From Paracoccus saliphilus (lineage in GTDB: Bacteria > Pseudomonadota > Alphaproteobacteria > Rhodobacterales > Rhodobacteraceae): DNA of 64,000 nucleotides. The notes under the pieces were generated by a model that searched no databases, was not told the DNA's origin, and saw only the letters and a list, made by a program, of their open reading frames with translations. How positions within the stretch are numbered: the stretch's first letter is position 1; the number at the start of each line of letters is the position of its first letter. Positions 27,893 to 48,657 of the stretch are shown in pieces. The DNA is taken from contig NZ_CP067140.1 of assembly GCF_028553805.1 (NCBI RefSeq), positions 4,222,001 through 4,286,000 of the forward strand. The letters run 5' to 3'. Made by a program: the position numbers and the translations under genes.

Positions 27893-28660
27893 ATGACCGA
27901 CAAAACCAGAACACGAGTCGGCGCGATCGATCGCAGCCTGCAAATTCTCGATCTTTTGACAGAGCGTCACCAACCGATGACAACCTATGATCTGGCGCGC
28001 AGCACAGGCGCACCGGTCTCGACGATTTACAAGCTCGTGGAAGAGCTTCTTGACCGCTCCATGCTGTCGCGAATCGGTGAAAACGGCATCTGGCTGGGCC
28101 CAAGGTTGATGCGCTACGGTCTTACCTATCGCGCCCGCATGGATGTCTTTGCCGAGGCACGGCGCGAAATGACCAGATTATCGGAAAATCTTGGCGAGAC
28201 GGTACAGATCTGTGCCCGAGACGAGGGCATGATGACGGTGATCGGCATGGCTCGCGCCGCCGGACATTTCAACGTCGCCTCTGATGTCGGCACACGGGTC
28301 CCGCTCAACTGGACAGCGTCGGGCAGGCTTTTGCTTGGGCATCTCGATGACGAGGAGCGGCTGCGCATCTTCACCCAGAGTGCGCTGCCGTCAGAGACCG
28401 GACAGGCCGAAACAGACCCGGCGGTATTGTCACGGCAGGCACGCAAAGAGTTCGAGGCGCGGCTTGCGGTGCAGATGAGTGCGTCTGAATTCGCGGTTGC
28501 GTGTATCGCGGCTCCGATCTGTGATGAAAATGGCAGTTGTCTCGCCACCATCTCCATCGTGCTCCCCGAAACCCGCGCTCGCACCGCTTACGATGAACTC
28601 ACTCGCGAGGTGCAGAATTCTGCGAGAACCATCGAAACGGCATTGGGCAGGCGGGGTTGA
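27893..28660 (+). CDS. IclR-family transcriptional regulator
   Basis: A 255-aa regulator with an N-terminal winged HTH (residues 10-70, with the recognition stretch TTYDLARSTGAPVSTIYKLVEEL) and a C-terminal IclR effector domain, including SGRLLLGHLDDEERLRI and SEFAVACIAAPICDENG. It is transcribed divergently from the transporter/amidohydrolase operon and is presumably its ligand-responsive regulator (inference from position). Its stop is inside a strong hairpin (28645-28672). Confidence 0.9.
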   Translation: MTDKTRTRVGAIDRSLQILDLLTERHQPMTTYDLARSTGAPVSTIYKLVEELLDRSMLSRIGENGIWLGPRLMRYGLTYRARMDVFAEARREMTRLSENLGETVQICARDEGMMTVIGMARAAGHFNVASDVGTRVPLNWTASGRLLLGHLDDEERLRIFTQSALPSETGQAETDPAVLSRQARKEFEARLAVQMSASEFAVACIAAPICDENGSCLATISIVLPETRARTAYDELTREVQNSARTIETALGRRG

Positions 28661-28723: not shown

Positions 28724-30121
28724 TTATTTGAGTGATCCCGCCAAATCCGAAGGGATTTCGGTCGCCGGTTGTCCGACTTTCTTCTCATCGGATTGCAGGC
28801 CCCAGTAAAGCTCGTCCAGCCCGGAAGCTTGATCCTCGACCGGTACGCGCAGTCCCACCGTCCGCTCAAGCACAAAGGCAAGAATGACCGCGGTCAGGGC
28901 GCCAGCTCCGATGCAAACGGCAATGCCTGCAAGCTGCATGACAATGCCGATCTGACCATGCTGGAAAGCAAACGCACCCTCTTCGATGCCGAAGTATCCG
29001 CCACGAGGCGTCCCCGCCTTGATCAAGCCGACCATGATCAAGCCATATATGCCCGCGCCGATAAACAGCGGGAACAGCTTGTGTTCGTCGATGCCACGCT
29101 TCAGCGTGAACTCGTACACGGCCCATGAGGTGATGGGGGCGAACAATGCCACAAGGAATGCCTGCCACGGCAGATAGACGTCAAAGCCGGATGCAATGGC
29201 GACATAGCCCGCCAGCGGCCCAAGCAACAGATAGGCGTAGTTCTTCGTCCTGTAGGATATGATGGCGCCGGTGACCGCTCCCCCAGCCCAAGCAAGACCG
29301 TAATTGTTGAAGGCAATGCCAACGCTGGTATCGGCCATCGTCACGCTGACAGCCAAAGCTTCGGGATCGAAGAAGAACAGGCAGGACAGGATCACCATCG
29401 GCAAGCCGGCAAAGATCGTGATCAGCCCGGTCGCGGCAAGGCCAATGCTGGGCGCGTTATAGGACGGCACCTTTGGATGAGGCTCGAACATGCCTGGCCG
29501 CTGCCCCAGTTTCGGCACCAGGACCAATGCCATCCCTGCCGGGAACAAGTAGACGAACCCGACCCCGAAGAAGTCATGGAACCCGGCATTCGTCAGCGGA
29601 CCGACGGAACCCCAGGTCATCCAGCTTAACGCCGAAGACACGACAGTAGCCACGACCGCGGTGATGTAGTAGGCGGACGCCTTCATTCGCTCGGATACCG
29701 AGAAATGGAGCAGCACGTTGATGATCCCCGCAAAGCAAGCGAGGAAAAACACGAATATCTGAAAGTTGTTCAGCCCCGGAAAAACCGCCGGATCGGTATG
29801 CTGCGCCAGACTGTTGGCAAGCGCACCGCCCAGCCACCAGTCACTGATGGCATTGCCAAGCGTCGCACCTTCCATGATGTAGTATTGCGCCGCCCAGAAG
29901 CCGAAACCGATGACGAAATAGGTGGTAAAGCCAAGGAAAAACCCCACCAGCTTTTCAATGGTGGAATTATAGAGATTCTCGCTGCGGGTCGTGCCAGCGT
30001 CGATCATCAGAAGCCCGACGACGACAAGGATGGCACCGACCGTGCCCGAACCATACACGAGGTTCTGCACAAGCGAATTCAGCGTCACTTGCTCTGGATA
30101 GAGCATGGCTGCGTGTTCCAT
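28724..30121 (-). CDS. Divergent Amt/Rh-family transporter lacking the twin histidines
   Basis: A 465-aa protein with about 11 membrane helices. Amt membership is clear from the C-terminal ERTVGLRVPVEDQASGLDE, which matches the conserved cytoplasmic end of AmtB, and from HDFFGVGFVYLFPAGMALV, which aligns with AmtB helix 5. At the position of AmtB His168 the residue is Tyr (GFVY). In my alignment through GIYGLIMVG the His318 position is Phe. The Asp equivalent to D160 is kept (HDF). Losing both pore histidines suggests that ammonium is not handled in the classical way. It is the last gene of the methylated-amine block, 148 bp after the SSS small subunit, so transport or sensing of a methylated amine is possible (inference). 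Confidence 0.8.
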   Translation of the reverse strand: MEHAAMLYPEQVTLNSLVQNLVYGSGTVGAILVVVGLLMIDAGTTRSENLYNSTIEKLVGFFLGFTTYFVIGFGFWAAQYYIMEGATLGNAISDWWLGGALANSLAQHTDPAVFPGLNNFQIFVFFLACFAGIINVLLHFSVSERMKASAYYITAVVATVVSSALSWMTWGSVGPLTNAGFHDFFGVGFVYLFPAGMALVLVPKLGQRPGMFEPHPKVPSYNAPSIGLAATGLITIFAGLPMVILSCLFFFDPEALAVSVTMADTSVGIAFNNYGLAWAGGAVTGAIISYRTKNYAYLLLGPLAGYVAIASGFDVYLPWQAFLVALFAPITSWAVYEFTLKRGIDEHKLFPLFIGAGIYGLIMVGLIKAGTPRGGYFGIEEGAFAFQHGQIGIVMQLAGIAVCIGAGALTAVILAFVLERTVGLRVPVEDQASGLDELYWGLQSDEKKVGQPATEIPSDLAGSLK

Positions 30122-30419: not shown

Positions 30420-32054
30420 TCAGGTGTTTCGCGTGTCGAATTGGCCGGCATGACGCGCGATCTGATCAAAATCGAACTCAACCTTGTTGAACCAGGAGAG
30501 CGCGACGCAAAGTATCGTGGAAACCGCATAGGCCAGAAGCGATGCGGTCAGGACCGGGTACAGATGCAGAAAACCGATCGCGAAGGGCAGCGTGATCAGC
30601 ATTACCGCCAGCGCCACCGCCACTCCGGCTCTCACCCCGAAAAACCCAAAGATCATCAAGCCGGCGATGACACCGATGCCGACAACGGATAGAAAGTCGC
30701 TGACAACGGCAACGATACCCTCCAGTGGCAACCAGCCGGTGCGAACCAAGGTGAATGCCACCAATGCCGCGACGACCGAGACGGTAAACCCGGTATTGTT
30801 GACCTTGCTCCAGTAGAAACTGGCGATGACAGGAAAGACCAATGCGCCCCAGATCGCGCCAACCAGCACCAGAAGATCAAGAATATCAAAGCGGCTGCTG
30901 GCGAAATACATCGCCATTCCGGTTGCGGCGATCATCGTGACGCGACCGATAAGCAGCATGAGCTGCGGCTTCGCGCCCGCTGCTCCCGCGATATTGCGGC
31001 CATAGATATCGGTCATCACGATGGAGGACATGGCCGACAGATCAGAATCCGCTGTCGAGGCGAGCGAACCGATGATCATGATGAAGAACACGCATAGGAG
31101 GCCCAAGGGCAGATAGCCTGCCGCAAGCTGCGGGATCAGGTTGTTCACATCCCCATCTGCCGGTTCGATCCCGAGATAGAGGGCAAGAACGCCCAATACC
31201 CCAATTCCGATTACCGTCGCGCCGTAACCCACTGTCGCGGTAATGAAGGTTTTCTTGATCATGTCCTCGCGCACGGCGAAAAGACGCTGCGCAATTGTCT
31301 GATTGCCGATTGCATAGGCCAGCACAGCGGCGATGAAGGGCGCTCCCTGATTGAAGAAGGCTTCGGACGAGAAAAAGCTCTGTTGCTGGGCGGTCAGGTT
31401 TTGTGCGCCATCGGCAAAGATCGAGCTTCCCCCCGCTGCGAAGAAGATCATCGGCACAACGATGATGACCGCGCCCAGCATGGCGCAAACCTGGATGAAA
31501 TCCGTCAACAACGAGGCCCGAATGCCCGACCAGAGCGTATAGATCAGGACACCCCCCGCGATCAGTAGGATGCCGGTCGAGAAGGATAGAGGCGACATCA
31601 TCGAGATCAACGCGCCTCCGGCGATGAAATTCGATGTCAGGCTGAGAAGACTCCCGAGCAGGTTCGATCCGGCGAGAAGCAGCTGACTCGACTGACCATG
31701 CCGGGCATGCAGGATCTCTGCCAGCGTATGAGCGTTAGGCGCCAGTGATCTTATACGCTTGCCAAAGGGGTAGATGAACAGGATCATCAGTGCTCCCCAA
31801 AGCCCATAATGGATCGGCCCGGACAGTCCATAGGTATAACCCGAGGTTGCCGAGGCATAGAGCGACGCCGCCCAGATCCATGTGGCCGTCATTGACGCGG
31901 CCGAGATCCCGAAACCGACATTGTTGCCGGCATTCATGTAACTGTCGGCATTTTCATGCTTCTTGCTAATGGATAACGATATCAGGAACGTCACCCCGAA
32001 AAAGGCGAGCAAGAGCACGAGCGTCAGGGTAGTTCCAAGCTCCAGTAGCTGCAT
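30420..32054 (-). CDS. Sodium:solute symporter (SSS family)
   Basis: A 544-aa inner-membrane symporter with about 13-14 helices. The Na+-binding helix motif is IGSLASTADSDLSAMSSIVMTD in outline, including the Ser/Thr residues that bind Na+ in SSS carriers. The early LSISKKHENADSYMNAGNNVG loop and the NFIAGGALIS segment also fit the family. The substrate is not assigned. Its place between dmmA and the Amt-like gene on the same strand points to uptake of a methylated amine or precursor (inference), unlike the ABC TMAO importer or BCCT carriers seen near tmm in other bacteria. A small subunit gene follows at once. Confidence 0.85.
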   Translation of the reverse strand: MQLLELGTTLTLVLLLAFFGVTFLISLSISKKHENADSYMNAGNNVGFGISAASMTATWIWAASLYASATSGYTYGLSGPIHYGLWGALMILFIYPFGKRIRSLAPNAHTLAEILHARHGQSSQLLLAGSNLLGSLLSLTSNFIAGGALISMMSPLSFSTGILLIAGGVLIYTLWSGIRASLLTDFIQVCAMLGAVIIVVPMIFFAAGGSSIFADGAQNLTAQQQSFFSSEAFFNQGAPFIAAVLAYAIGNQTIAQRLFAVREDMIKKTFITATVGYGATVIGIGVLGVLALYLGIEPADGDVNNLIPQLAAGYLPLGLLCVFFIMIIGSLASTADSDLSAMSSIVMTDIYGRNIAGAAGAKPQLMLLIGRVTMIAATGMAMYFASSRFDILDLLVLVGAIWGALVFPVIASFYWSKVNNTGFTVSVVAALVAFTLVRTGWLPLEGIVAVVSDFLSVVGIGVIAGLMIFGFFGVRAGVAVALAVMLITLPFAIGFLHLYPVLTASLLAYAVSTILCVALSWFNKVEFDFDQIARHAGQFDTRNT

Positions 32055-32133: not shown

Positions 32134-33177
32134 CTATTCGTCGGGGAATATCCCCGGTGAGGTCGGCTTCCCATCATCGAACTGCGCGAGGTAGTCGATG
32201 ATAAGCTGACGATTGACGGCGAAGCCCTTGTAGTCGGCCAGTTCGTCGGGCAGATCACGGATCACGCGGTGCAGGCGGCGGCCCCATTTCGGCACCGTTA
32301 CCAGATCCTGCAGCGAGATCAGGTAGCAGCGGATCGGGAAGGCCAGCCCATTCGAGCGCGGCAGCCGGAAAAAGGTCTGTAGTTCGACGCGCAGATATTG
32401 CTTCTCGCCGACATTCTCGGGGGTCAGGGTGCGCTTTTCCGGACCCCATTTGTGGTAATTCTCGGGGCTTGTATCCAGACGCGGATTGACCGTCATCGTC
32501 CAGTTCAACCGCCGCGACGGGGAATCCTGCTGTATCGCCAGCAGGAATTTCAGCGCCCGCTGGAAAATCCCCATCTCGTGCGCCTTGGGCACTGGCGCAT
32601 GCCATTCGAAGAAATTCATCCCGATGTCGAAATCCAGGCTCCAGTCTGCCTGACTGGTCACCATCCCGGCCTCCATCCACAGATTGCCCTCGCGCTGATC
32701 GAGCACCGCGAAATCGCCCTGTGCCTGGCGGGTGATGTATTCCATCGGTCCGTAGGGCAGCGTGGTCGGGTCGAGGAAGGTGAACTTGTGGTCGATCCCC
32801 AGTGGACGGTTGATCCAATGCCAGCGATCGCCGTCGCGGTGCAGGCTGAACAGCTCGGGATAGTCCTCGGATTTCGAGACCATGATCAGTTCCAGCAAGT
32901 CCCAACCCGCCAGCTCCATATGCGGCAGAGACTGACAGCGCAGCGGATCCTCGTTCAGGGTGATCTCGCGGTCCCGCATCTCGGCGACGTAGTGTTCATC
33001 GACATCGAAGCGGTTCTCGAAGGGGCTGCCCTCGCGGCCCCCGGCATGCGGCTCCATATTGACCGCATACATGTAGTCGTCCTTGTCAAAGGGAAACGGA
33101 AAACGCCGGATCGCCTCGGCCGAGTTGTGATAGCTGTAGTCGTCGCGGAAGGTCTCGTCGTTGAACTGGATGGTCAT
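32134..33177 (-). CDS. dmmA: Dimethylamine monooxygenase catalytic subunit (heme-dependent oxidative N-demethylase, DUF3445)
   Basis: A 347-aa soluble protein of the heme-dependent oxidative N-demethylase family (DUF3445). Characteristic stretches are RFPFPFDKDDYMYAVNM near the N-terminus, the central GPMEYITRQAQGDFAVLDQ and SQADWSLDFDIG, and RVELQTFFRLPRSNGLAFPI. It oxidises dimethylamine to methylamine and formaldehyde with electrons from DmmB/DmmC. A perfect CAGGAGGTTGCC site precedes the ATG. It is the most downstream of the three monooxygenase genes here, separated from dmmB by 105 bp with a hairpin. Confidence 0.88.
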   Translation of the reverse strand: MTIQFNDETFRDDYSYHNSAEAIRRFPFPFDKDDYMYAVNMEPHAGGREGSPFENRFDVDEHYVAEMRDREITLNEDPLRCQSLPHMELAGWDLLELIMVSKSEDYPELFSLHRDGDRWHWINRPLGIDHKFTFLDPTTLPYGPMEYITRQAQGDFAVLDQREGNLWMEAGMVTSQADWSLDFDIGMNFFEWHAPVPKAHEMGIFQRALKFLLAIQQDSPSRRLNWTMTVNPRLDTSPENYHKWGPEKRTLTPENVGEKQYLRVELQTFFRLPRSNGLAFPIRCYLISLQDLVTVPKWGRRLHRVIRDLPDELADYKGFAVNRQLIIDYLAQFDDGKPTSPGIFPDE

Positions 33178-33282: not shown

Positions 33283-34230
33283 TTACCTGTTGAGTATCAG
33301 TTCCTTGCCCCGGAATCGGGAGACGCAGGGCATGATCTTCGTCTGTGAGCTGCGTTCGTCTTCTGAGAGCCAATGGTCATTGTGCTCGATCCGGCCATGG
33401 CAGGAGACCACCTCGGTCTCGCAGCGCCCACAGGCGCCGCCCCGGCAGCTCCAGTCCATATCGACCTGCGCCTCCTCGAGAGCTTCGAGCAGGCTCTGAT
33501 GCGGGCTGACCGAGACGCGCTGCCCCGTTTTCGCCAGTGTCACCTCGAAGGCACGGCCGGGCGGCGGAGCCAGGAACACCTCGGAATGCAACGAGCCGCA
33601 CGGCCATCCCAAGCGCTCGGCGCATTGCGCCACCGCGGTGATCAGGCCTTCCGGGCCGCAGGTATAGACATGGGTGCCGATCGGCTGGCGGTCGAGGATA
33701 GCCCCCAAATCCATCCGCTTGCCCTCATCCGATATATGGGCATGGATATGCGGAAGGCTGGGCAATAGCCGCAGCCCGGCCGCCTCGCGGCGCGAACGGG
33801 CGGCGTAGTGTATCTCGAACCGGCCTTGCATCCGCAGAAGCTGCTGCATCTGGGCGATGATCGGGGTGATGCCGATTCCCCCCGCGATTAGCACATGCTT
33901 GCGCGCCCGCATGTCCAGCGAGAACAGGTTCAAGGGCGTCGAGATGCGCAGCATGTCGCCCTGCCTGACGCAGGCATGCATGAAGCGCGAGCCGCCCCGT
34001 CCGCCATCCTCGCGGCGCACCGCGATCTCATAGCCCGAGCCGTCCTGCGGATCGGAGATCAGCGAATAGGCGTTGCGGCGCAGCGCATCGCCATCAGACA
34101 TCTCGACCACGACATGCGCTCCGCCCGAGAATAACGGCAACTTCTCGCCCCTGGGGTGTTCGAAGCGGAAGCGCTTGACCAGCGGCGACAGCGCCTCGAT
34201 CTCGGTGACTCGCAGCATCTGGGCGCTCAT
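33283..34230 (-). CDS. dmmB: Dimethylamine monooxygenase reductase subunit (ferredoxin reductase type)
   Basis: A 315-aa phthalate-dioxygenase-reductase/VanB-like flavoprotein. An N-terminal FMN/FAD-binding domain (RRNAYSLISDP) is followed by an NAD-binding domain (HVLIAGGIGITPIIA and VYTCGPEGLI). A C-terminal plant-type [2Fe-2S] domain has cysteines in SCRGGACGRCETEV and a later Cys in MPCVSRF. It passes electrons from NAD(P)H to DmmA. Its start overlaps dmmC by 4 bp. Confidence 0.87.
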   Translation of the reverse strand: MSAQMLRVTEIEALSPLVKRFRFEHPRGEKLPLFSGGAHVVVEMSDGDALRRNAYSLISDPQDGSGYEIAVRREDGGRGGSRFMHACVRQGDMLRISTPLNLFSLDMRARKHVLIAGGIGITPIIAQMQQLLRMQGRFEIHYAARSRREAAGLRLLPSLPHIHAHISDEGKRMDLGAILDRQPIGTHVYTCGPEGLITAVAQCAERLGWPCGSLHSEVFLAPPPGRAFEVTLAKTGQRVSVSPHQSLLEALEEAQVDMDWSCRGGACGRCETEVVSCHGRIEHNDHWLSEDERSSQTKIMPCVSRFRGKELILNR

Positions 34231-34829
34231 GCCTTGATCTCCTGCCTTGGGGGGATTTCGCCGGGAGCTTCGGCATCCACGCAGACGCCCTGGAACGCGG
34301 CATGGCGGTGCGAATAATGGTCACGCACGAACAGCGACAGCCCGCAATGCAAGCAGGTGAACGGGTCGGTGATGACGTTCTCGGTAATGCCCTTGCAGTG
34401 GACGCATTGCATCCGCCGCGCGAGGCTGCCGCGATGCTCGGCATCGATCGCCTCGGGCAGCATTCCCGCCGCCAGCGCCTCGGAGGTCGCCTGACCGATC
34501 AGCCCTTCGGTTCCGGCAAGGTAAAGCCGGGTGTTCATCCCGGCATCGGCCAGCAGCTTGCGAAAACGCGGCAGGATCGAGGGATAGCTGGCACCCTCGA
34601 AATAACCGGCGAATCCCTTGGTTTCGAGCGTTTTTCCCAAGCCGCAGCCCTCTGGGATATAGATCACATGGGCCTGGCCCGGTATCGTCGGATCGGCCTT
34701 GATCAGTTCCAGCAGCGCTTCGCCGCCCGGACCATTGGCCAGCATCAACGAGGGCACGGCACCATGCGGCTTCAGCCCGCCATAAACGGGGCGGCTGATA
34801 ATTGAAGGGGTAAATTTCGTGGCAGACAT
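34227..34829 (-). CDS. dmmC: Dimethylamine monooxygenase subunit DmmC
   Basis: A 200-aa protein. The first two thirds resemble a nucleotide-binding fold of reductase type (GQAHVIYIPEGCGLGK and RLYLAGTEGLIG). The C-terminal third has paired cysteines (MQCVHCKG and FTCLHCGL), probably a zinc ribbon or rubredoxin-like metal site. The combination matches the third component of DmmABC. It overlaps dmmB by 4 bp and lies 66 bp after the GcvT-like gene. Confidence 0.8.
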   Translation of the reverse strand: MSATKFTPSIISRPVYGGLKPHGAVPSLMLANGPGGEALLELIKADPTIPGQAHVIYIPEGCGLGKTLETKGFAGYFEGASYPSILPRFRKLLADAGMNTRLYLAGTEGLIGQATSEALAAGMLPEAIDAEHRGSLARRMQCVHCKGITENVITDPFTCLHCGLSLFVRDHYSHRHAAFQGVCVDAEAPGEIPPRQEIKA

Positions 34830-34895: not shown

Positions 34896-36029
34896 TCAGC
34901 CCTTCGCGGTGCGGCGCTTCTTGTCCTGGTCATAGAAGGGCATCGGATGGGCGACGGCGCGGATCTCGCCGCCCGAGTTGCGGATTGTCAGCTTCGTGCC
35001 CTCCACCGCGCAATCGACCGGCATCCGGGCGATGCCGACATTGTGCTCGTTCAGCGGGCTGTAGAAGCCGATGGTGACGACGCCGACCTCCTTGCCGTCC
35101 TTGAGGATCGCCGCGCCTTCCTCGGCGGCTTCGGTGCCCTCGAGCTTGACGCCATAGATCTTGAAGCGCTCCTTGCCCTGCAGGCGGTAATGCTCCTCGG
35201 CGCCACGGAAACCGGTCTTGCCCTTTGAGACAGTGAAATCGAGACCCAGTTCCCACAGCGTGTCACCACAGGACTCGTTCTCGAACGGATACATCTCGGA
35301 ATTGTCATAGGGGAAGAACAGCAAGTAGCTTTCCGACCGGAGCAGGTCCAGCGTGGTGAAACGGGTCGGGATGATGCCCATCTCCCGGCCCTCGGCCACG
35401 ATGGTGTCCCAGATCTCGGGTGCGTCCTGGCGGCGGCAGAAGATCTCGTAGCCGCGCTCGCCGGTATATCCGGTACGCGAGATGGTCACCGGCTTGCCAA
35501 ACAGCGTGGTGTGAATATGGCTGAAATAGACCACATCGCGGATGCCCGGCACGTGCTTTTCCAGGTAATCCACCGCGAGCGGTCCTTGCAGCGAGATGTC
35601 GTGCAGGTCGTCATCGAACAGCACGTTCACGTTGCGCCCGGTCGCCGCCATGGTCAGCTGCTCATGGCCCTGGCCCGCGCCATGCACGACCATGAAGCTA
35701 TGCGGTCCCATCCGGTAGACCACACAATCATCCACGAACTTGCCCGCATCGTTCAGCATGCAGCAATAGGTCGAGCGGCCCGGTTTCAGCTTTTCGATAT
35801 CGCGGGTCACCGCCCGGTCGATCACATGGCTTGCATGAGGGCCGATCACGTGAACCTTCTTCAGGCCAGACACGTCCATGACACCCGCCTTGGTGCGGAT
35901 CGCCATGTATTCCTCGAGCTGATCCTTGTCATAACTCCACGCGGTGCCCATGCCACTCCAATCCTCGAGCTCCGAGCCCATCGCACGGTGCCGGTCGGCC
36001 AGCGCCGAAAATCTCCATGATGCGGTCAT
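34896..36029 (-). CDS. dmmD: GcvT-like tetrahydrofolate aminomethyltransferase of the dmm cluster
   Basis: A 377-aa GcvT-family protein with the folate-binding domain signature SRTGYTGERGYEIFC and the C-terminal barrel (GIARMPVDC and RAVAHPMPFYDQDKKR). The YDQDKKR ending is close to that of Tdm (YDPEKKR), which suggests related THF domains. It probably moves the methyl/formaldehyde carbon released by demethylation to tetrahydrofolate, making 5,10-methylene-THF. The start at 36029 follows GGAGGACAGACATC. It sits 37 bp after tdm and 66 bp before dmmC. Confidence 0.78.
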   Translation of the reverse strand: MTASWRFSALADRHRAMGSELEDWSGMGTAWSYDKDQLEEYMAIRTKAGVMDVSGLKKVHVIGPHASHVIDRAVTRDIEKLKPGRSTYCCMLNDAGKFVDDCVVYRMGPHSFMVVHGAGQGHEQLTMAATGRNVNVLFDDDLHDISLQGPLAVDYLEKHVPGIRDVVYFSHIHTTLFGKPVTISRTGYTGERGYEIFCRRQDAPEIWDTIVAEGREMGIIPTRFTTLDLLRSESYLLFFPYDNSEMYPFENESCGDTLWELGLDFTVSKGKTGFRGAEEHYRLQGKERFKIYGVKLEGTEAAEEGAAILKDGKEVGVVTIGFYSPLNEHNVGIARMPVDCAVEGTKLTIRNSGGEIRAVAHPMPFYDQDKKRRTAKG

Positions 36030-36066
36030 GATGTCTGTCCTCCTGTCCTGTTGATTCCTGATCCCG

Positions 36067-38433
36067 TCACGACCGGGGCCGCTTCTTCTCGGGATCGTAA
36101 TGCGGGAAGGTGGATACCCTCGCCGCGATGCGTTTCTGATGCCCGTCCAGCCGGCCCACCTCGACGGCGGTGCCCGGTTCGGAATGGGCGACATCCACGC
36201 GTGCCAATGCGATCATCTGCCCCGTCCGAGGCACCCGCATGGCCGAGCAGATCTCGCCCACCTGCGCACGGCCGATACGGATGCAGTCGCCATGCGCCAC
36301 CGGCTCCTGGCCGTCGATCTCGAGCCCCACGAATTTGCGTGAAGGATGTTCCTTGCGCCGGATCAGCGCATCGCGCCCGACGAAATCTGCGGTCTTGGAT
36401 TTCAGCGGCACGGTAAAGCCGACCCCCGCTTCGAACGGATCGGTCTGGTCGTCGAAATCATAACCCGCAAAGATCAGCCCGGATTCGATCCGCACCAGGT
36501 CCAACCCGGCCAGACCCATTGGCCTTATCCCCAGGGGCTGCCCGGCCTGCCAGACAGCGTCGAACACAGCCTCGCCGTCTTTCGGATGGCAGAACACTTC
36601 GTAACCCAACTCTCCCGTATAGCCGGTGCGAGAGACGACAACCGGCACGCCTTGTTCTCCGCCGATCCGGCCGACGGCAAAACGGAACCAGCCAAGCTCG
36701 GGCAAGGCGGGCTGATGCGGGGGAGTCCAGATGATATCCGACAGCAATTCGCGCGATTTCGGCCCCTGCACCGCCAGATTATGCATCTGGTCGGTGGACG
36801 AGCGGATCATCACGTTCAGCCCAAGCCGTGCGGCCTCTTCGCGCATCCAGACGCCGCCCTCATCCGAGCCCCCGATCCAGCGGAAATTCTGTTCGCCCAC
36901 GCGGAACAGCGTGCCGTCATCGATCATGCCACCATGGGGATAGCACATCGCGGTATAGACGACCTGCCCATGACCCAGCTTGCTGACATTGCGGGTCAAA
37001 ACCCAGTTCAGCAGGGCTTCGGCATCCGGCCCCGTAACCTCGAATTTGCGCAGCGCCGACAAGTCCACCGCCACGACGCCGTCGCGGCAGGCCCAGTAAC
37101 TCTCTACCGGATCGCATTCGGGAAAGGAGTTCGGCAGCCAGAAGCCACGATACTCGACGAAATCGCGGGTCATTCCGGCGAATTTCTGATGAAAGGCGGT
37201 TTCGCGCGTCATGATCGGCTCCGAATCTGGTGTGGCTCGCCATGCGACGGCGCGCTGAAGGCGCTCGGTCGCGGCATAGCTGCGCATGTGAATATCGGTC
37301 AGCATCCAGCCATTGGCCGGTGACGTATCATCGGGACAGGCCGACGATACGCATACGATGTCGGTCAGCGCCCTGAGCAGCACGTAGTCGCCGGGCCGTG
37401 ACCATGGCTCGTCCACAAACAAGACGCCATGCGCGTCTATCTCGGTGTTGAAGAAGAAATTCGCCGCCATCCAACCCGGCCGTCCCGGCACGCCATAGGG
37501 CGCCAGCGCCGCGTTGAAATTGTCGGTGCAATTCACATGGCCGGGATAGCCGATATCGTCGTAATACTTGGCCGAGCAGGCCATGGCGAAGGCATCGTGG
37601 CGCCCGCAGGTATCCTGGATCACCTCGACCAGCGGTGTCAGGTCCTGGTCGAAATATTTCGCATGCAGCCCCGGCATGGGATAGGCGTGGTGCTGATAGG
37701 TCCGGGTCGTCGTCACATCCAGCGGATGGGCAATGCCGCGATCCAGCTTGCGCGCGTCGAAACACTGGAAATCGGTGCATTGGCGGCCATCGACATCGAT
37801 GATCTGGATGAATTCGCCCTTGCGAACCAGATAGGCTTCGGCGGTTGACGATTTTACTCGCAGATCGAGGATCGGATCGGCCAGCGGATCGGGCAGGTCG
37901 AATCCGGCACTCCGGCGCGGCGTGGCACGGGTGATGCAAAGAGTCAGCGGCGTGGTGGTATTCTGTCGCTCGAAATCCATGGGCAATCCGGGTGCCGCGA
38001 CCACCAGCCAACCCTCGGTGGTGGCGGTGAAATCGGCCTCGTCGCCCGGAGCAGAATCCGCACCAAACAAACCGATCGAGCGTTCAACCGTGATCCCGCG
38101 CGCGGCCAGCCCCTTGCGCAAGCCTGCCAGTCCGGCGTTGTCCGAGGAGAGCAATGCCTGCAATCCCATTGCTGGTTGATCCGTCTTGACCCCCAGGATC
38201 TGGCTATCCACTCGGCCATCGCGATGCGCTGCCAGTAGTTCGGCATGCTGCCCGCCCTCGTCATTCACGATCTTGATCTGATCTCCGGCGGCAATCTGGA
38301 CCAGAACGCCGCCGCTGCCGGGGATCGCATATCGCTCGGTCGCGGACGAAAGGTTGTAGCCCATCGCCCGGCGCGGTCGCGTGGCAGTCGGCGGTCCAGG
38401 CCGAAGCAGATTTTCTGGAGGTAGTGACAACAT
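36067..38433 (-). CDS. tdm: Trimethylamine N-oxide demethylase (DUF1989-GcvT fusion)
   Basis: A 788-aa two-part enzyme. The N-terminal part (to about residue 375) is a DUF1989 domain with VDVDGRQCTDFQCF and a Zn-binding Cys/His set (for example ACPDDTSPANGW and the Cys in HVNCTDNF). The C-terminal part is a GcvT/THF-binding domain with SRTGYTGELGYEVFC. This architecture is that of Tdm, which cleaves TMAO to dimethylamine and formaldehyde and can pass the C1 unit to THF. The start at 38433 has AGGTGAGG upstream; the longer frame to 38544 runs into tmm. A hairpin with a T-run lies in the 62-bp gap to tmm. Confidence 0.92.
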   Translation of the reverse strand: MLSLPPENLLRPGPPTATRPRRAMGYNLSSATERYAIPGSGGVLVQIAAGDQIKIVNDEGGQHAELLAAHRDGRVDSQILGVKTDQPAMGLQALLSSDNAGLAGLRKGLAARGITVERSIGLFGADSAPGDEADFTATTEGWLVVAAPGLPMDFERQNTTTPLTLCITRATPRRSAGFDLPDPLADPILDLRVKSSTAEAYLVRKGEFIQIIDVDGRQCTDFQCFDARKLDRGIAHPLDVTTTRTYQHHAYPMPGLHAKYFDQDLTPLVEVIQDTCGRHDAFAMACSAKYYDDIGYPGHVNCTDNFNAALAPYGVPGRPGWMAANFFFNTEIDAHGVLFVDEPWSRPGDYVLLRALTDIVCVSSACPDDTSPANGWMLTDIHMRSYAATERLQRAVAWRATPDSEPIMTRETAFHQKFAGMTRDFVEYRGFWLPNSFPECDPVESYWACRDGVVAVDLSALRKFEVTGPDAEALLNWVLTRNVSKLGHGQVVYTAMCYPHGGMIDDGTLFRVGEQNFRWIGGSDEGGVWMREEAARLGLNVMIRSSTDQMHNLAVQGPKSRELLSDIIWTPPHQPALPELGWFRFAVGRIGGEQGVPVVVSRTGYTGELGYEVFCHPKDGEAVFDAVWQAGQPLGIRPMGLAGLDLVRIESGLIFAGYDFDDQTDPFEAGVGFTVPLKSKTADFVGRDALIRRKEHPSRKFVGLEIDGQEPVAHGDCIRIGRAQVGEICSAMRVPRTGQMIALARVDVAHSEPGTAVEVGRLDGHQKRIAARVSTFPHYDPEKKRPRS

Positions 38434-38451
38434 GTTTCGCCTCACCTTGAG

Positions 38452-38482
38452 AAAAAGGTTCCGAGGCGCCGGCTGGCGCCTC
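38452..38482 (-). terminator. Hairpin with T-run between tmm and tdm (possible attenuator)
   Basis: On the minus strand GAGGCGCC and GGCGCCTC (38463-38470 and 38475-38482) form an 8-bp stem with a 4-base loop. Six bases later comes a run of five T (complement of 38452-38456). It would partly terminate transcripts leaving tmm before tdm. The spacing from stem to T-run is longer than ideal, so it may be only a stabiliser. Confidence 0.5.
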
Positions 38483-38495
38483 CGGCTGTTCATCG

Positions 38496-39839
38496 TCAGT
38501 TCTGCAGGTAGACTTCCTTGCTGTCGTCCAGCGCATCCTTCCACGGCGTATGGTGAACGGGTGCCATCGTACCCGTGATGACCGAACGATAGCTGTTGTC
38601 ACGGAAAGTCATGATGTTCTCGGCCTTGTGCTTCTTCCATTCAAAGAAGGCCGCGCAGGCGCCATCGACATCAAAGCTGGGATAATCCGTCTCGGCGATC
38701 AGCTCCTTGATGTAGTCGCCCTGGTACTGGATCGCGTATTTCGCATCATCTGACGCTTCTTCACGTGTAACACGCTCGTCCACATCGGCGACCATCTCCT
38801 GCTTGTCCGTGGGCAGGTCAATCCGGCCAAGGATTGCATCGCGCACCCACCATGCCTGCGCATCGAACATGTTGAAGGTGAACCACTGATCCTGCATGCC
38901 CAGATAGAACATCTTCGGATTGTGAACATAGACGACGCCCTTATACAGATCGGCTGTCGCCAGCCGGTTGGCTGTTTTCAGGCGCAGATCATCGGGCAGG
39001 AACGGGAAATAATGCCGATAGCCGGTGCAAAGAATGATCGCATCAACCTCTTTGCTGGTGCCGTCGATGAAATAGGCAGTCCGGCCCTCGACACTTTCCA
39101 GGGCGGGTAGTTCCTCCCAGTTGTCCGGCCATTTGAACCCCATCGGTGCGGTTCGATAGGATGTCGTCACCGACTTCGCGCCGTATTTCCAGCATTGCGA
39201 GCCAATATCTTCGGCCGAGTATGACGACCCCATGAGCAGCACATCCTTGCCGGCAAACTCGCGGGCATCTCGGAAATCATGGGCATGAACGATCCGGCCA
39301 TTGAACTGCGTGAAACCGGGATATTCCGGCACGTTCGGGCTCGAGAAATGGCCCGAGGCACAGATCACGTAGTCGAACTGCTCCTTGTAGACATGGTCCT
39401 TCGCCATGTCATGGACCGTGACGGTAAACTGCTCGGTCCCGGGATCGTAGTCGATCCAGCGGATGACGCTTCTGAAACGAATCCAGTCGCGCACACCGGC
39501 CTTGAGCACCCGGCCCTCGATATAGTCGAACAGCACGGCCCGCGGCGGATACGATGCGATCTGTTTGCCGAAATGCTCCTCAAAGGAATAGTCGGCGAAT
39601 TCCAATCCCTCTTTCGGACCATTGCTCCACAGATAGCGATACATCGATCCGTGAACCGGATCGCCATTCTCATCGACGCCGGTGCGCCAAGTGTAGTTCC
39701 AGAGCCCGCCCCAATTGGACTGCTTCTCGAAACAGACGATCTCGGGGATCTCGGCGCCCTCCTTGGCGGCCGACTGGAATGCCCGCAGTTGCGCCAACCC
39801 CGAGGGCCCCGCACCGATAATGGCAACACGCTTGGTCAT
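38496..39839 (-). CDS. tmm: Trimethylamine monooxygenase (bacterial flavin-containing monooxygenase)
   Basis: A 447-aa class B flavin monooxygenase. It has the FAD motif [13 protein letters not shown] at the N-terminus, the Tmm-type [16 protein letters not shown], the FMO-identifying stretch [13 protein letters not shown], and the NADPH motif [15 protein letters not shown]. The sequence is typical of Tmm rather than of Baeyer-Villiger enzymes. It oxidises trimethylamine to TMAO with NADPH and O2. It leads the long minus-strand block and diverges from the binding-protein-fold gene at 40011. Two overlapping inverted repeats sit at its candidate promoter. Confidence 0.94.
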
Positions 39840-39868
39840 GATCCTTGCTTCTCCCTATTTGCGGTCAG

Positions 39869-39934
39869 ACCAGTATTGGAAACTGGTTCATTCGGTTTGA
39901 ACCTATACAAACATGGGATCACTCGTTTAAGCAA
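39869..39934 (-). promoter_or_regulatory. tmm promoter with two overlapping operator-like inverted repeats
   Basis: On the minus strand TTGCTT (39929-39934) and TTGTAT (39905-39910) are 18 bp apart and form a plausible -35/-10. Just downstream, around the expected start, lie two inverted repeats that share bases: ACCAGT-7-ACTGGT (39869-39887) and GGTTCA-7-TGAACC (39885-39903). Sites here suit a repressor, for example the GntR protein encoded at 41272-41997 (inference). Confidence 0.45.
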
Positions 39935-40010
39935 CATTTTTTCTTCACAAGAATTTAATTTTGCATTTTCTTGCGTATTTCCATGGGAGAATCAGGCTAT
40001 AAGCGGTTTC

Positions 40011-41324
40011 ATGAACAGATCGACCTTTGCCCAAAGACTAGCCGTCAGCGGTTCCTTACCCCGCCTTGGCGCCACGAATCGCTCTCCCGTCCGGATCGGA
40101 GCCCTGACCCCTCTTTCCGGAGCCGAACAATATTGGGGGCGCCCCGGTCTGGACGGCTGCCGGATATGGGAGGATTGGATCAATGACCGTGGCGGCATGA
40201 TGGTGTCGGGCAAACGTCACCGCGTCGAGATCGTCGAATTCGACAGCGCCCAAGGGGCCGAACAAACGCTGGAAGCCGCCCGCGACATGATCGAGCGGCT
40301 TCATGTGAGGCTGATCCTGACCCTCGGCGGCGACAGTTTTGCCCCCGCCCTGCGCTATCTGATGGAACGACGTGCGCTGGTTGCCACGCTGTTACCCTCG
40401 GATCTGACCCCCGACACACCATTCCTGATCGCGCCAGCCGAGGTACACCCCCTGTTCAACGTCACCGGCGTTGAATACCTGGCCCGCCAATTGCCACCCT
40501 CCCGCCGCGTCGCCTTGTGCAGTCAGCGCGACAGCCTGGGGTTGCCCTCTCTCGCGGTATACCGCGCGGCTTTCGATGTCGTGGGCTGGTCCCGCATCAA
40601 GGAACTACGCTACGACCCGGACGAGACCGATGCCGAAGCCATCGTCACCGCGATGATGGCCGACAAGCCCGATGTTCTTTGCTGGTGCTCTTCCACACCG
40701 CCAATGATGCTTGCCTTGACGGAAGCTGCATACCGATTGGGTTTTGATGGTCATATACTCGCCTGCACGGCCGATGATTATCCACAGATGATCGATCGCA
40801 CCTCGCCGGGCTTCATGGAGCGCTACATCTTCCAGTTTCCGGATTTCGACGATCCGAAACTGGCCGATACCGCCTTTTTCTTTCGCCAGCCACGCGCCTT
40901 CTTCGACGCCTACAACACGCGCTTTCCAGGGGAATGGAGCGCCGTCAGCTGGGAATACGCCTCGATCCTAGATCTGTGGCACAACGCGGTCGAAATCGCA
41001 GATACGGTCGAACCGGTTTCGGTTCTTGCATCCATGAAACACGCCCAGCAAATGCCCCATGCCTTCGGCCCCGCGATCTGGAGCGGGCGTGATCTTTTCG
41101 GAATCGACAACGCGTTGGTCGGTGATTGGCCAGTGGTAGCGATCCGCGAAGGTCGCGCCCGGATCCAGGAATTCGGTTCGGTTCCAGACTGGCTCGAAAA
41201 GCATGGTGACAAGCTGGTTCGGCAGTTGGAGGATCTGGGCCAGCTCTGGCACCAACGGCTTGGCGAGCCGCTTAACCATCCTGCAGCAACAGCTTCTGAT
41301 CTTCGATCAGGGACAGCTTCATGA
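40011..41324 (+). CDS. Cytoplasmic periplasmic-binding-protein-fold ligand sensor (AmiC/UrtA-like)
   Basis: A 437-aa protein of the branched-chain amino acid/amide-binding type I fold, with PVRIGALTPLSGAEQYWG near residue 25 and the RLILTLGGDSFAPALRYLMERR segment. It has no hydrophobic signal peptide: the first 25 residues are MNRSTFAQRLAVSGSLPRLG and similar, so it is probably cytoplasmic. It diverges from tmm and no permease or ATPase lies beside it. A cytoplasmic member of this fold that senses ligands (AmiC) is known to control amidase genes, so a TMA/TMAO-sensing role is plausible (inference). It overlaps the GntR gene by 53 bp at the 3' ends. The longer open frame from 39279 lies over tmm and is rejected. 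Confidence 0.7.
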   Translation: MNRSTFAQRLAVSGSLPRLGATNRSPVRIGALTPLSGAEQYWGRPGLDGCRIWEDWINDRGGMMVSGKRHRVEIVEFDSAQGAEQTLEAARDMIERLHVRLILTLGGDSFAPALRYLMERRALVATLLPSDLTPDTPFLIAPAEVHPLFNVTGVEYLARQLPPSRRVALCSQRDSLGLPSLAVYRAAFDVVGWSRIKELRYDPDETDAEAIVTAMMADKPDVLCWCSSTPPMMLALTEAAYRLGFDGHILACTADDYPQMIDRTSPGFMERYIFQFPDFDDPKLADTAFFFRQPRAFFDAYNTRFPGEWSAVSWEYASILDLWHNAVEIADTVEPVSVLASMKHAQQMPHAFGPAIWSGRDLFGIDNALVGDWPVVAIREGRARIQEFGSVPDWLEKHGDKLVRQLEDLGQLWHQRLGEPLNHPAATASDLRSGTAS

Positions 41325-41997
41325 ACTCACAGGCCTCGTCGATATCGCGCGCGGCAATCGCGTTGAACAGAGAATTGTAGCCACGCTGATAGGTGGCGAT
41401 GCGACTCGGCGTCAGATGACGGCGATACATCGGCGCACGAAATGCCTGGCGGCGAGCGTCGATCACCAGATTATAACAAGCGATCAGCAACGGATTTCCC
41501 GTGCCCGTTGCGATCTGGCGGTGGAATTCCTCCTCCAGCCGGACAAAAGCCATCGCATCGATCTGCACCGCCTCCATCTGCGATAGGATCTTGCCGAGAG
41601 CCTCGATCTGACGCGGCGACATGTTGACGATGGCCAGCCGGACCATCTCCGGCTCGATGATGCCGCGCATCACCTGAAGTTGCAGCGGACCCGTTTCAGC
41701 CGCGACCGGCGCCAGCGATTCACTTGCACCGTCCGGATCATAAATGACGAAGGAACCGGCCCCGGCGCGGCGACGGATCATGCCGCGCGCCTCGATCATG
41801 TCCAAGGCCTCGCGCACGGTATTACGAGCGACCCCCAAATCCTGCGCCAGTTGCCGCTCGGATGGCAGGCGCTCGTCCAGCCCGTATTCCTGCGACACGA
41901 TCCGCATCGTCAGCGTGTCGATGACATATTGAACGGTCGCGCCAAGGACGGGCTCGGCCCGTCCCGGATTCGTAGTGATATGGCTGGCAGGCGGCAC
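41272..41997 (-). CDS. GntR-family transcriptional regulator (FadR subfamily)
   Basis: A 241-aa regulator with an N-terminal GntR winged HTH (RLPSERQLAQDLGVARNTVREALDMIEARG in outline) and a C-terminal FCD helical domain with metal-binding residues (EEEFHRQIA and later His/Asp positions). The start is GTG at 41997 with GAGGAG 8 bp upstream. It converges with the ligand-sensor gene, sharing 53 bp. Its likely targets are the methylated-amine genes or the purU/folD unit (inference). Confidence 0.85.
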   Translation of the reverse strand: MPPASHITTNPGRAEPVLGATVQYVIDTLTMRIVSQEYGLDERLPSERQLAQDLGVARNTVREALDMIEARGMIRRRAGAGSFVIYDPDGASESLAPVAAETGPLQLQVMRGIIEPEMVRLAIVNMSPRQIEALGKILSQMEAVQIDAMAFVRLEEEFHRQIATGTGNPLLIACYNLVIDARRQAFRAPMYRRHLTPSRIATYQRGYNSLFNAIAARDIDEACEFMKLSLIEDQKLLLQDG

Positions 41998-42083: not shown

Positions 42084-42968
42084 CTATCCCATGCGCTCGC
42101 TTGAATACGATCCCGGCGAAGCGGGGAAGACCACCGTCTTGTTGTTGTTCAGGAACACGCGATGGTTGGCATGGGCATGGATCGCACGCGCCAGAACCTG
42201 GCTCTCCACGTCACGCCCGAGGCTGACATAGTCTTCGGGCGACTGTCCATGCGTCACGCGGATAATGTCCTGCTCGATGATCGGACCTTCATCCAGGTCG
42301 GCAGTGACGTAATGCGAAGTTGCCCCGATCAGCTTCACGCCGCGCTCATAGGCCTGCTTGTAGGGGTTGGCGCCCTTGAAGCTGGGCAGGAATGAATGGT
42401 GGATATTGATGATCCGCCCCGACATCTTCTGGCACATCTCGTCCGACAACACCTGCATGTAGCGCGCCAGCACGACCAGTTCTGCCCCGGTCTCCTCGAC
42501 GATCCGCATCTGCGCGGCCTCGGCTTCGGGCTTGTTCTCTTTCGTGACCTTGATGTGGTGGAAGGGAATATCGTGATTCACCACCACTTTCTGATAGGTC
42601 AGGTGGTTCGAGATCACACCAACGATGTCGATCGGCAACGCGCCGATACGCCAGCGATACAGCAAGTCGTTCAGGCAATGTCCAAAGCCCGAAACCATTA
42701 CGATGACCTTCATCTTCCGCGCTTCATCGTGGAATTGATATGTCATCCCGCATGTCTTCGCGGTCTCGGCAAAGCCCTTGTTCAGCTTGTCCAGCGTCGC
42801 GCCCTTTTCCGAGGCAAAGCTGACGCGCATGAAGAACTTGCCCGTCTCCGGGTCATCGAATTGTGAACTGGCGGTGATGTTGCAGCCCTGATCGGCGAGA
42901 TAGCCGGAAATCGCGGCAACGATACCCCGCGTGGAATCGCAGGCAACTGTTAGGCAGAATTTGGTCAT
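42084..42968 (-). CDS. purU: Formyltetrahydrofolate deformylase
   Basis: A 294-aa enzyme with an N-terminal ACT domain (CDSTRGIVAAISGYLADQGCNI) and a C-terminal formyltransferase-like hydrolase domain. The catalytic Asn-His-Asp set is visible in VVVNHDIPFHH, NIHHSFLPSFKGANPYKQAYERG and TADLDEGPIIEQD. It releases formate and THF from 10-formyl-THF. Together with FolD it oxidises the C1 units that leave TMA/DMA as methylene-THF. The start at 42968 is set by AGGAG six bases upstream. folD lies 78 bp upstream on the same strand. Confidence 0.93.
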   Translation of the reverse strand: MTKFCLTVACDSTRGIVAAISGYLADQGCNITASSQFDDPETGKFFMRVSFASEKGATLDKLNKGFAETAKTCGMTYQFHDEARKMKVIVMVSGFGHCLNDLLYRWRIGALPIDIVGVISNHLTYQKVVVNHDIPFHHIKVTKENKPEAEAAQMRIVEETGAELVVLARYMQVLSDEMCQKMSGRIINIHHSFLPSFKGANPYKQAYERGVKLIGATSHYVTADLDEGPIIEQDIIRVTHGQSPEDYVSLGRDVESQVLARAIHAHANHRVFLNNNKTVVFPASPGSYSSERMG

Positions 42969-43046
42969 TTGCATCTCCTGTCGTGAGCGGGATGGAGGTT
43001 CTCGCAAGCCCGCCATTTTCTCTATGTTATTGTCCGAAATTCGGTC

Positions 43047-43952
43047 TCAGGCAGTCAGCCCTTCGGGTTCCGGCAAACCCGCCGCGCGGCAGCAAGCGGT
43101 CAGCGTATTGGCCAACAAGCAGGCGATGGTCATTGGACCCACGCCGCCGGGCACCGGAGTGATCGCACCGGCAACGGCACGGGCGCTGTTGAAATCGACA
43201 TCACCGACAAGGCGAGTCTTGCCGCCCTCTTCGATCCGGTTGATGCCCACATCGATCACCGTGGCACCGGGCTTGATCCAGTCACCGGGGATCATCCGTG
43301 GCCGTCCCACCGCGGCGATAAGGATATCCGCGCGGCGGCAGACCTCGCCCAAGTCTTTGGTCTTGCTGTGAGCAACGGTCACGGTGCAGCTATCGCGCAA
43401 CAACAGCTGCGCCATCGGTTTGCCGACGATATTGCTGCGCCCCACGATTACCGCGTTCAGCCCTGTCAGGTCGCCCAAACGATCACGCAGCATCATAAGG
43501 CAACCGAGCGGCGTGCAAGCCACCATGGCTTTCTGCCCCGTCGCCAAAAGCCCGACATTAAGAATATGGAAACCATCGACATCCTTGGCCGGCTCGATCG
43601 CATTAAGCACCGCCTCGGCATCCAGATGGCCAGGGAGCGGCAGTTGCACCAATATCCCATGTACCGCCTCATCGGCATTGAGTTGAGCGACCAGCGCCAT
43701 CAACGCTTCTTGCGTGGTATCGGCGGGCAACTTATGTTCGTACGAATTCATTCCCGCCTCGCGGGTCTGAATGCCCTTGTTGCGAACATAAACCTCGCTG
43801 GCCGGATCCTCGCCCACCAATACCACCGCCAGACCCGGGGTAATCCCGTGTTCTTTCAGCTTGGCGACCTGTGCAGCAACTCGTTGCCGAACATCCGCGG
43901 AAAACGCCTTTCCGTCGATCAAGGCTTCACGGTCGGTGATTGAGTCACTCAT
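43047..43952 (-). CDS. folD: Bifunctional methylene-THF dehydrogenase / methenyl-THF cyclohydrolase
   Basis: A 301-aa enzyme with [17 protein letters not shown] (catalytic Tyr and Lys region), [18 protein letters not shown] and the NADP site [15 protein letters not shown]. The [16 protein letters not shown] end is the family signature. It converts 5,10-methylene-THF to 10-formyl-THF, ahead of PurU. The longer frame to 43991 is not supported; GGGAGAG precedes the ATG at 43952. The 223-bp space to the AraC-type gene shows a short perfect repeat, GTCAT-2-ATGAC (44132-44143). Confidence 0.93.
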
Positions 43953-44175
43953 TCCAACTCTCCCTTCAGGCGTTTTGCGGAAATCTTCCACGCGCTCCAG
44001 AATTCATCGCGATGTTGCCCATGGTGCGGAACCGGAGGAAAACATCGCACGGTATTCCTTGTTCAATGCTCAATCTGGCACAGCACCGGACGAATAATGT
44101 GCCTGTATGCGACATTCCATTGCTCAAACAGGTCATTCATGACAGGCTCGACATGCACAGAAAGAGGATGTCACC

Positions 44176-45165
44176 TTGCCCGCTTCCGATCCGCAGCGCC
44201 CAGCGCGTTATGGATTTCTGCTATTGCCGGATTACGCGCTCATGTCCACTGCCTCGGCCATCGAACCGTTGCGGGCCGCGAATCTGCTCAGCGGAAGAGT
44301 GCTGTATGATCTTCGGTTCCTCTCTGTCCACGGCGGCTGGATGCAAAGCTCCGGCGCGGGGGCATTCCATACCGTTCCTGTTGCCGATGCCACCGAGGAA
44401 TTCGATATTCTTTTCGTCGTCGCCGGGGGAGATCCGCTAGCGCAACGGGACGAGCGTGTGTTCGCCATCCTGCGAAGATTGGCCCGGCATGGCGTGTCCC
44501 TTGGCGGAATCTCGGGCGGGGCGGCGATCCTAGCGGCGGCGGGCGTGATGACCGCACGCCGCTTTACCATTCACTGGCAGCATATCGACGCGATGCGCGA
44601 AACCTATCCCGACGCACTGATCGAACGGCGGCTTTTCGTCATCGATCGCGACCGCTTCACCTGCGCGGGCGGCATGGCGCCTCTGGACATGATGCATGCG
44701 CTGATCGCAGCGGATCACGGATCCGCCTTGGCGCGATCGGTCAGTGACTGGTTCATCCATACCGGCATTCGCGAAGCAGAGGCCCCGCAGCAACTCGACC
44801 CGGCACGGAAATATGACCTGCATCATCCGGCACTCGTGGCAATGATCGATCTGATGACCAGCCACCTGGCCGATCCCCTGCGGCTCGATGATCTGGGTCA
44901 TCTTTGCGGTATCGGCCCCCGGCAACTGGAAAGGCTGACGCAGGCGCGGCTGGGTCACAGCGTCATGCAGCTTTATCGCCGCCTGCGGCTGGAAAAAGCC
45001 GATGAGTTGCTCACCCAGTCCAGCCTGCCGCTGACCGAAATCGCACTGGCAACGGGCTTTACTTCCCGCAGCCATTTCTCCCGCACCTTCCGAGAGCAAT
45101 TCGGACAGACGCCATCGGCTCGGCGAACCCAACCCCGCCCAGAGAGAAATCAAATCGCATCATGA
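44176..45165 (+). CDS. GlxA-family AraC-type transcriptional regulator
   Basis: A 329-aa regulator with an N-terminal DJ-1/PfpI-like domain (RYGFLLLPDYALMSTASAIEPLRAAN in outline, with GGISGGAAILAAAGV) and a C-terminal AraC HTH pair (LRLEKADELLTQSSLPLTEIALATGF followed by SHFSRTFREQFGQTPSARR). The start is TTG at 44176 with AGAGGA upstream; no in-frame ATG is available. In related bacteria GlxA-type proteins lie beside glxBCD and glnT genes, and here it converges on that cluster. The ligand is probably a nitrogen compound (inference). Confidence 0.87.
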   Translation: MPASDPQRPARYGFLLLPDYALMSTASAIEPLRAANLLSGRVLYDLRFLSVHGGWMQSSGAGAFHTVPVADATEEFDILFVVAGGDPLAQRDERVFAILRRLARHGVSLGGISGGAAILAAAGVMTARRFTIHWQHIDAMRETYPDALIERRLFVIDRDRFTCAGGMAPLDMMHALIAADHGSALARSVSDWFIHTGIREAEAPQQLDPARKYDLHHPALVAMIDLMTSHLADPLRLDDLGHLCGIGPRQLERLTQARLGHSVMQLYRRLRLEKADELLTQSSLPLTEIALATGFTSRSHFSRTFREQFGQTPSARRTQPRPERNQIAS

Positions 45166-46564: not shown

Positions 46565-46599
46565 CAGCGGCTCCCCTGTTGCGTATATGTGAATCCCCG

Positions 46600-46621: not shown

Positions 46622-46634
46622 TTCTGGGTGACGA

Positions 46635-47960: not shown

Positions 47961-47972
47961 CGCCTTCTCTCC

Positions 47973-48656: not shown

Positions 48657-48657
48657 A

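Follow-up and report, generated by a model that had tools for sequence, protein, structure and literature searches.

Which molecule, if any, passes through an Amt-family protein that lacks both pore histidines and is encoded among genes for methylated-amine degradation? The question is raised by a 465-residue protein (28724..30121, minus strand; PF00909) of Paracoccus saliphilus, encoded in a stretch of 64,000 nucleotides, hereafter the window, where its gene forms one end of a gene run encoding the route from trimethylamine (TMA) to glutamate.

The locus and the pore of the His-less Amt

Immediately upstream of the Amt gene, and likewise on the minus strand, lies the gene for a 544-residue sodium:solute symporter family protein (30420..32054; PF00474, 103 bits), which scored under the cut-offs of those NCBI families that match it. 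Next on this strand are genes for a DmmC-like dimethylamine monooxygenase subunit of the HODM_asu-like type (32134..33177; PF11927), a DmmB-like reductase subunit of the FAD/NAD/2Fe-2S type (33283..34230; PF22290, PF00111, PF00970), DmmA (34227..34829; PF22290/PF22289; NF041259, 108.4 bits against a cut-off of 60) and a DmmD-like aminomethyltransferase of the GcvT family (34896..36194; PF01571/PF08669), where the DmmC-, DmmB- and DmmD-like proteins were named from family and position. Two NCBI equivalogs identified the TMAO demethylase Tdm (36067..38544; DUF1989 and GcvT; NF053776, 1174.7 bits against 1100) and the trimethylamine monooxygenase Tmm (38496..39839; NF058570, 839.8 bits against 675). 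The same strand further encodes a GntR-type regulator, TmoR-like by position, for which all listed GntR-type families were below cut-off (41272..41997), a purU-like formyl transferase gene with folD (42084..43991; PF00551; PF00763/PF02882), the gamma-glutamylmethylamide synthetase GmaS (45260..46765; TIGR03105, 652 bits against 469.6; 75% identity to the GmaS query; labelled type III glutamate-ammonia ligase in NCBIfam) and the N-methylglutamate synthase genes mgsCBA (46635..49551; PF13522 for MgsA), named from family and order. On the plus strand, an IclR regulator gene adjoins the Amt gene (27893..28660; PF01614, PF09339), an AraC/DJ-1 regulator of the GlxA type lies at 44176..45165 (PF12833, PF01965), and a gene for a Peripla_BP_6 protein (39279..41324; PF13458 at residues 270-617) separates tmm from the GntR gene. 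The real start of the Peripla_BP_6 gene is probably downstream, since the ORF opens antisense to tmm.

Relatives of the His-less Amt were sampled as the best 80 of 100 loci matching the patterns GFHDFFG[VI] and WGSVGPLTN, near relatives included. A Peripla_BP_6 homologue was present at 32 of these best 80 of 100 loci, and tmoR is reported to lie near tmm, the pair usually being parted by a gene of unknown function (PMC13390433); the Peripla_BP_6 protein may be an AmiC-like ligand sensor partnered with the GntR regulator. At 3 of the best 80 of 100 loci, all from Paracoccus, a symporter gene precedes the Amt gene on the same strand within 500 bp.

The window protein matched the Amt/Mep/Rh superfamily (PF00909) with 120.1 bits against a gathering threshold of 23.2, and both its AlphaFold model and the structure matches of that model had the Amt fold. 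It scored 126.8 bits against TIGR00836, the NCBI Amt family, whose cut-off is 343.3 bits; the Amt paralogue of the same genome scored 356.4 bits. The twin-His pore motif was absent. As the earlier note had read from its own alignment, Tyr191 stands at the site of AmtB His168 and Phe353 at that of His318, and phmmer, MAFFT and profile alignments were concordant in this. A misalignment of the second site was considered and ruled out, since all three alignments gave the same Phe353.

Tyr and Phe occupied the two sites in 80/80 genomic relatives (best 80 of 100) and in 121/121 proteins, whereas His/His was read in 30/30 high-scoring control Amts, for which the ORF-picking pattern could be satisfied with or without His and yielded an Amt-length ORF from all 30 loci. 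Among 76 Paracoccus genomes, an intact low-scoring Amt (104-119 bits) was encoded in five, each time alongside a second, high-scoring Amt; one further genome had such a gene in broken frames and another had it as a fragment. All five intact copies, the window's included, read Tyr/Phe. Note that the best 80 of 100 already include two of the four other Paracoccus copies (L156, L157), and that L158 and L159 match plasmids H2 and H1, respectively. The Tyr/Phe pair is thus a family-wide trait and not an oddity of one protein.

Other features of the pore were partly conserved. The outer-site residues Trp170, Phe130 and Asp183 were retained, and AmtB Thr273 was replaced by Ala310. Identity to the control Amts was 22-26%, and the His-less Amt had extra residues relative to them ahead of TM3 and in the TM6-TM7 region. 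Residue 252 was acidic where the controls have Asn, which serves only as a lead, given that the alignment near 248-252 (AmtB W212-N216) shifted between runs. Just ahead of the TM10 helix, E346-H347-K348 was invariant in 80/80 relatives (best 80 of 100), where the controls mostly have Ser-Leu-Asp. The fixation of Tyr and Phe, together with dozens of further invariant positions among the His-less relatives, argues for strong selection on the protein. A search for intermediates in 385 genomes of the class at E 1e-30 returned none but the protein's own copy.

Association with trimethylamine oxidation

We next considered the gene neighbourhoods. Among the best 80 of 100 loci, the fetched flank (up to 10 kb) held any pathway gene at 55 and any TMA, TMAO or dimethylamine (DMA) gene at 53; both counts include the two trimethylamine dehydrogenase loci described below, and loose DmmB-only matches (34-38%; L023, L032, L047 and L053) had been dropped as pathway genes beforehand. 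Tmm was encoded near the Amt gene at 39/80 loci (best 80 of 100). For 29 of the 41 loci without a local Tmm, the enzyme was encoded elsewhere in the genome (20/27 and 9/14; two of the 20 were fragments), and 11 of the 12 remaining genomes (6/7 and 5/5) encoded trimethylamine dehydrogenase with at least 74% identity. Taken together, one of these TMA-oxidising enzymes was found in 79/80 carrier genomes (best 80 of 100), the sole exception being an Alteromonadaceae MAG (L082); in the genome under study, Tmm lies within the window. Downstream of the Amt gene, on the same strand and within 500 bp, a TmoR-type GntR gene was found at 25 and DmmD at 7 of the best 80 of 100 loci.

The two Methylophilaceae loci, L037 and L040, carry a trimethylamine dehydrogenase homologue (96% identity between the two loci) and a TMAO permease gene near the Amt gene; the L037 homologue matched the solved structure 1DJN with 1426 bits. 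The tie of the His-less Amt to TMA oxidation holds via two different enzyme routes. In L037:1-17824, the Amt gene is flanked by two genes of the trimethylamine dehydrogenase type, one perhaps for dimethylamine, with the TMAO permease gene nearby.

The fetched flank of 25/80 loci (best 80 of 100), several of them with short flanks, held no pathway gene, but in 24 of these 25 genomes one of the two TMA-oxidising enzymes, Tmm or the dehydrogenase, is encoded at another site. The earlier note had named, as a case that would refute its reading, proven ammonium transport by close relatives in loci unrelated to methylated amines; no such case was found here. As a control, the surroundings of 15 other Amt genes, all His/His, were searched over up to 20 kb each for methylated-amine pathway genes, and none was found (0/15; 13 stretches whole, two cut by contig ends; the 30 controls already include genes from 8 of the 14 stretches L123-L136). 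In the same test, pathway genes were present in 5/5 carrier stretches, at least four of which also belong to the 80 loci.

Weak plasmid matches, with about 25% identity to the His-less Amt, led to a second set of Amt proteins, hereafter group II, in similar clusters. Both histidines were kept in 16/16 of these proteins (12/12 loci and 4/4 plasmid copies); note that two rows of one alignment of 16 group II sequences were without readable columns, and that a separate reading covered all 12 loci. In Thioclava sp. GXIMD4215 p2, where Tmm and DmmA exceeded the NCBI cut-offs, the gene order was tmm, tdm, an FCD regulator gene, amt, a small ORF, dmmD, dmmA, dmmB and dmmC; in Falsirhodobacter algicola it was tmm, tdm and amt. 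In Ponticoccus p-SCP3, the group II gene lies near annotated glutamate-ammonia ligase and glutamate synthase genes of the gmaS-mgs type. Examples from TMA/DMA or gmaS-mgs type clusters are at L141:7887-9266, L143:4887-6266 and L138:5887-7266. A further group II gene, at L140:7887-9266 on Thioclava sp. GXIMD4215 p3, had no annotated methylated-amine gene within 8 kb.

Group II shares several features with the His-less Amt. Its TIGR00836 score of about 215 bits was likewise below the cut-off, and it had Ala310 (12/12 loci and 4/4 plasmid copies). In a tree, the two groups, each a clade, lay on the same side of a branch supported at 100/99, with long branches for which the tool warns of false joins. 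His182 and Asp314 were common to both groups and differed from the 30 controls. A twin-His Amt at L139:8046-9758, on a plasmid labelled Monoglobus pectinilyticus and adjoining a glutamine synthetase III gene, also has His182 and Asp314, so that only Ala310 stands out.

To assess how these genes are distributed, 248 Rhodobacteraceae genomes (247 genera) were surveyed. The His-less Amt was found in 6 genomes and Tmm in 56; all six carriers have Tmm against a base rate of 56/248 (p = 1e-4, relatedness ignored), within about 10 kb of the Amt gene in five of the six, and gmaS was present in 6/6. Group II was found in 35 genomes, 34 of them with Tmm, and lay within 12 kb of tmm in 20/35, of gmaS in 17/35 and of either in 27/35, so position alone cannot tell TMA from monomethylamine. 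Either group was present in 39/56 genomes with Tmm versus 1/192 without (Fisher 7e-31, a value that, like the other presence counts, takes related genomes as independent). By enzyme, either group was present in 35/48 genomes with Tmm and gmaS, 4/8 with Tmm alone, 0/33 with gmaS alone and 1/159 with neither. We read these counts as showing that, across genomes, the Amt gene tracks TMA oxidation, and not the use of monomethylamine or the release of ammonium in itself. Neither Amt group was present in 17/56 Tmm genomes; they are therefore not essential for TMA use. The two groups occurred together in one of the six His-less carriers (G686) and in Ponticoccus alexandrii, on two plasmids. The idea that they are mutually exclusive was thereby weakened, one of six carriers having both where 3.6 would be expected among Tmm genomes (p = 0.03).

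The methylated-amine link proposed in the earlier note thus proved strong and could be narrowed to TMA-oxidising genomes. Its reasoning from missing histidines to methylated amines did not hold: group II occupies the same kind of slot with both histidines, so histidine loss neither explains the methylated-amine locus nor is needed for, or diagnostic of, the link to TMA.

Candidate functions

Tri- and dimethylamine are mostly protonated at neutral pH, and the enzymes that oxidise TMA act inside the cell. Because these enzymes are internal, no such importer is named for these bacteria in the literature covered and the centre of the pore is aromatic, entry of TMA or DMA fits the data best. We tentatively favour the reading, with a confidence just under even, that the His-less protein is an Amt-fold membrane permease that would admit tri- and/or dimethylamine into TMA-oxidising cells. 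The amine would bind first at a periplasmic site made of Trp170, Phe130 and Asp183, and would then cross the middle of the pore, where Tyr191 and Phe353 form the lining and Ala310 stands in place of AmtB Thr273; inside the cell it would be consumed by Tmm or trimethylamine dehydrogenase. The two-lane relay of NH3 and H+ described for AmtB (PMC7447429) cannot run in that form without the twin His, which excludes AmtB-type cotransport of the same form; the substrate would therefore most likely cross whole, as amine or ammonium ion, driven by the membrane potential and metabolic trapping. We also count in favour of an amine role that a further, high-scoring Amt is encoded by the window genome and by each of the four other Paracoccus carriers. 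For TmaT, which transports TMA and whose structure is solved, TMA binding via aromatic residues is reported (PMC11708041). Against the permease reading stands the report that AmtB no longer takes up methylamine when either His is changed to Ala, and takes up neither substrate when both are changed (PMC3647058).

Since group II retains the twin His, a role common to both groups needs no histidine loss, and two Amt proteins that occupy one type of slot despite deep divergence would most likely share one job. More speculatively, though still as a serious possibility, the twin-His and Tyr/Phe groups may form one TMA-linked Amt branch, both being tri- and dimethylamine permeases that serve Rhodobacteraceae and Methylophaga-type methylotrophs, with the His-less pore rebuilt for a larger amine without a proton relay.

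The strongest alternative is that the His-less Amt handles ammonium, exporting or recapturing what is freed when methylated amines serve as carbon and energy sources, which we consider rather unlikely. The Amt fold with its outer-site residues is kept, and group II, within 12 kb of gmaS in about half of its genomes, has an ordinary twin-His pore; if group II proteins are ordinary ammonium transporters, the His-less Amt might be one too. Methylated-amine-degrading Rhodobacteraceae are reported to supply ammonium to diatoms, with amt marked in their clusters (PMC7574528), and AmtB without both His conducted ammonium as a channel in vitro, but its double His-to-Ala variant gave no yeast growth on low ammonium (both PMC7447429). 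Furthermore, Paracoccus aminophilus without pAMI6 is reported to fail on ammonium chloride (PMC3925955, PMC4543880). That plasmid carries the only amtB reported for the species, pAMI6p067, two locus tags from tdm and near dmm; many other genes are lost with pAMI6. The distribution argues against a role in ammonium handling, either group being absent from all gmaS-only genomes yet present in half of the tmm-only genomes, as does the high-scoring Amt that Paracoccus carriers already have.

It is improbable, in our view, that the protein is a sensor or transceptor that binds methylated amines or ammonium without conducting them. The receptor-labelled Sd-Amt1 and the sensor Amt 6eu6 are among its best structural matches, and both the TmoR-type gene downstream at 25 of the best 80 of 100 loci and the invariant E346-H347-K348, unlike the controls, would suit such a function. 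However, the Pfam scan found PF00909 as the sole domain and no fused signalling domain, the C-terminus ending 26 residues past the match, and the pathway already has named regulators, TmaR and TmoR, of which TmaR is described as having no known effector (PMC13390433).

Equally little probability falls to a carrier of another compound from the same clusters, such as TMAO. Of the best 80 of 100 copies, 18 have Tdm encoded nearby and 6 a homologue of a TMAO permease. Against TMAO, 11 carrier genomes encode trimethylamine dehydrogenase, with no Tmm found, and this enzyme leads to DMA without passing through TMAO; in addition, named TMAO transporters exist, tmoXWV and tmoP (PMC5520151). Finally, it is very improbable that loss of the twin His left a decayed protein or a cation channel of poor selectivity: the AmtB H168A and H318A variants carry K+ (PMC7447429) and yeast Mep2 double variants form a K+/ammonium channel (PMC9040831), but for the double Ala variant of AmtB the table with the single ones lists no K+ current, and the fixed Tyr and Phe with dozens of other invariant positions argue against decay.

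Relation to known systems

Vertebrate RhD and RhCE (Rh30) depart naturally from the twin-His motif. Fungal Mep proteins do so too, but with Glu at the first site only, which a 2020 eLife paper gave as the only natural variation (PMC7447429); the bacterial Tyr/Phe family breaks this stated rule at both sites. The open-licence PubMed Central literature searched yielded no paper on bacterial Amts without the twin His, nor one on transport by the Amt of methylated-amine clusters, in which the amt or amtB gene goes under the label of ammonium or ammonia transporter (PMC7574528, PMC5520151). A 2024 paper implicates two proteins in microbial TMA transport, MttP and TmaT, neither of them an Amt (PMC11708041), and in a transporter study of R. 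pomeroyi the four substrates verified beforehand by knockout include TMAO and not TMA (PMC10130141). If TMA does enter through these Amts, its permease is listed in databases under the wrong name, that of an ammonium transporter, and TMA and DMA uptake would become traceable by gene. The paired groups with and without His are, in addition, a natural test of the purpose of the twin-His motif.

TmaT resembles the window protein in its proposed substrate and in the aromatic residues along the substrate path, but it is a Na+/TMA symporter of the unrelated BCCT family (PMC11708041), and the Pfam scan found no BCCT domain in the window protein. MttP of methanogens is likewise a putative TMA permease assigned by neighbourhood, but belongs to the drug/metabolite transporter superfamily (PMC11708041). 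Ks-Amt5 and Sd-Amt1 share the Amt fold with the window protein, and the pore of Ks-Amt5 also has bulky aromatic side chains; Ks-Amt5 retains the twin His (PMC10433425), however, whereas the window protein lacks both these residues and an output domain. From AmtB and Amt-1 it differs in its low identity to the control Amts, the replacement of both pore histidines and of Thr273, and its setting in a TMA cluster. A further parallel is group II of Thioclava p2 and Falsirhodobacter algicola, which is unlike the window protein in overall sequence and in keeping both histidines, but shares with it the slot among tmm, tdm and dmm genes, Ala310, a TIGR00836 score below cut-off and the same side of the branch.
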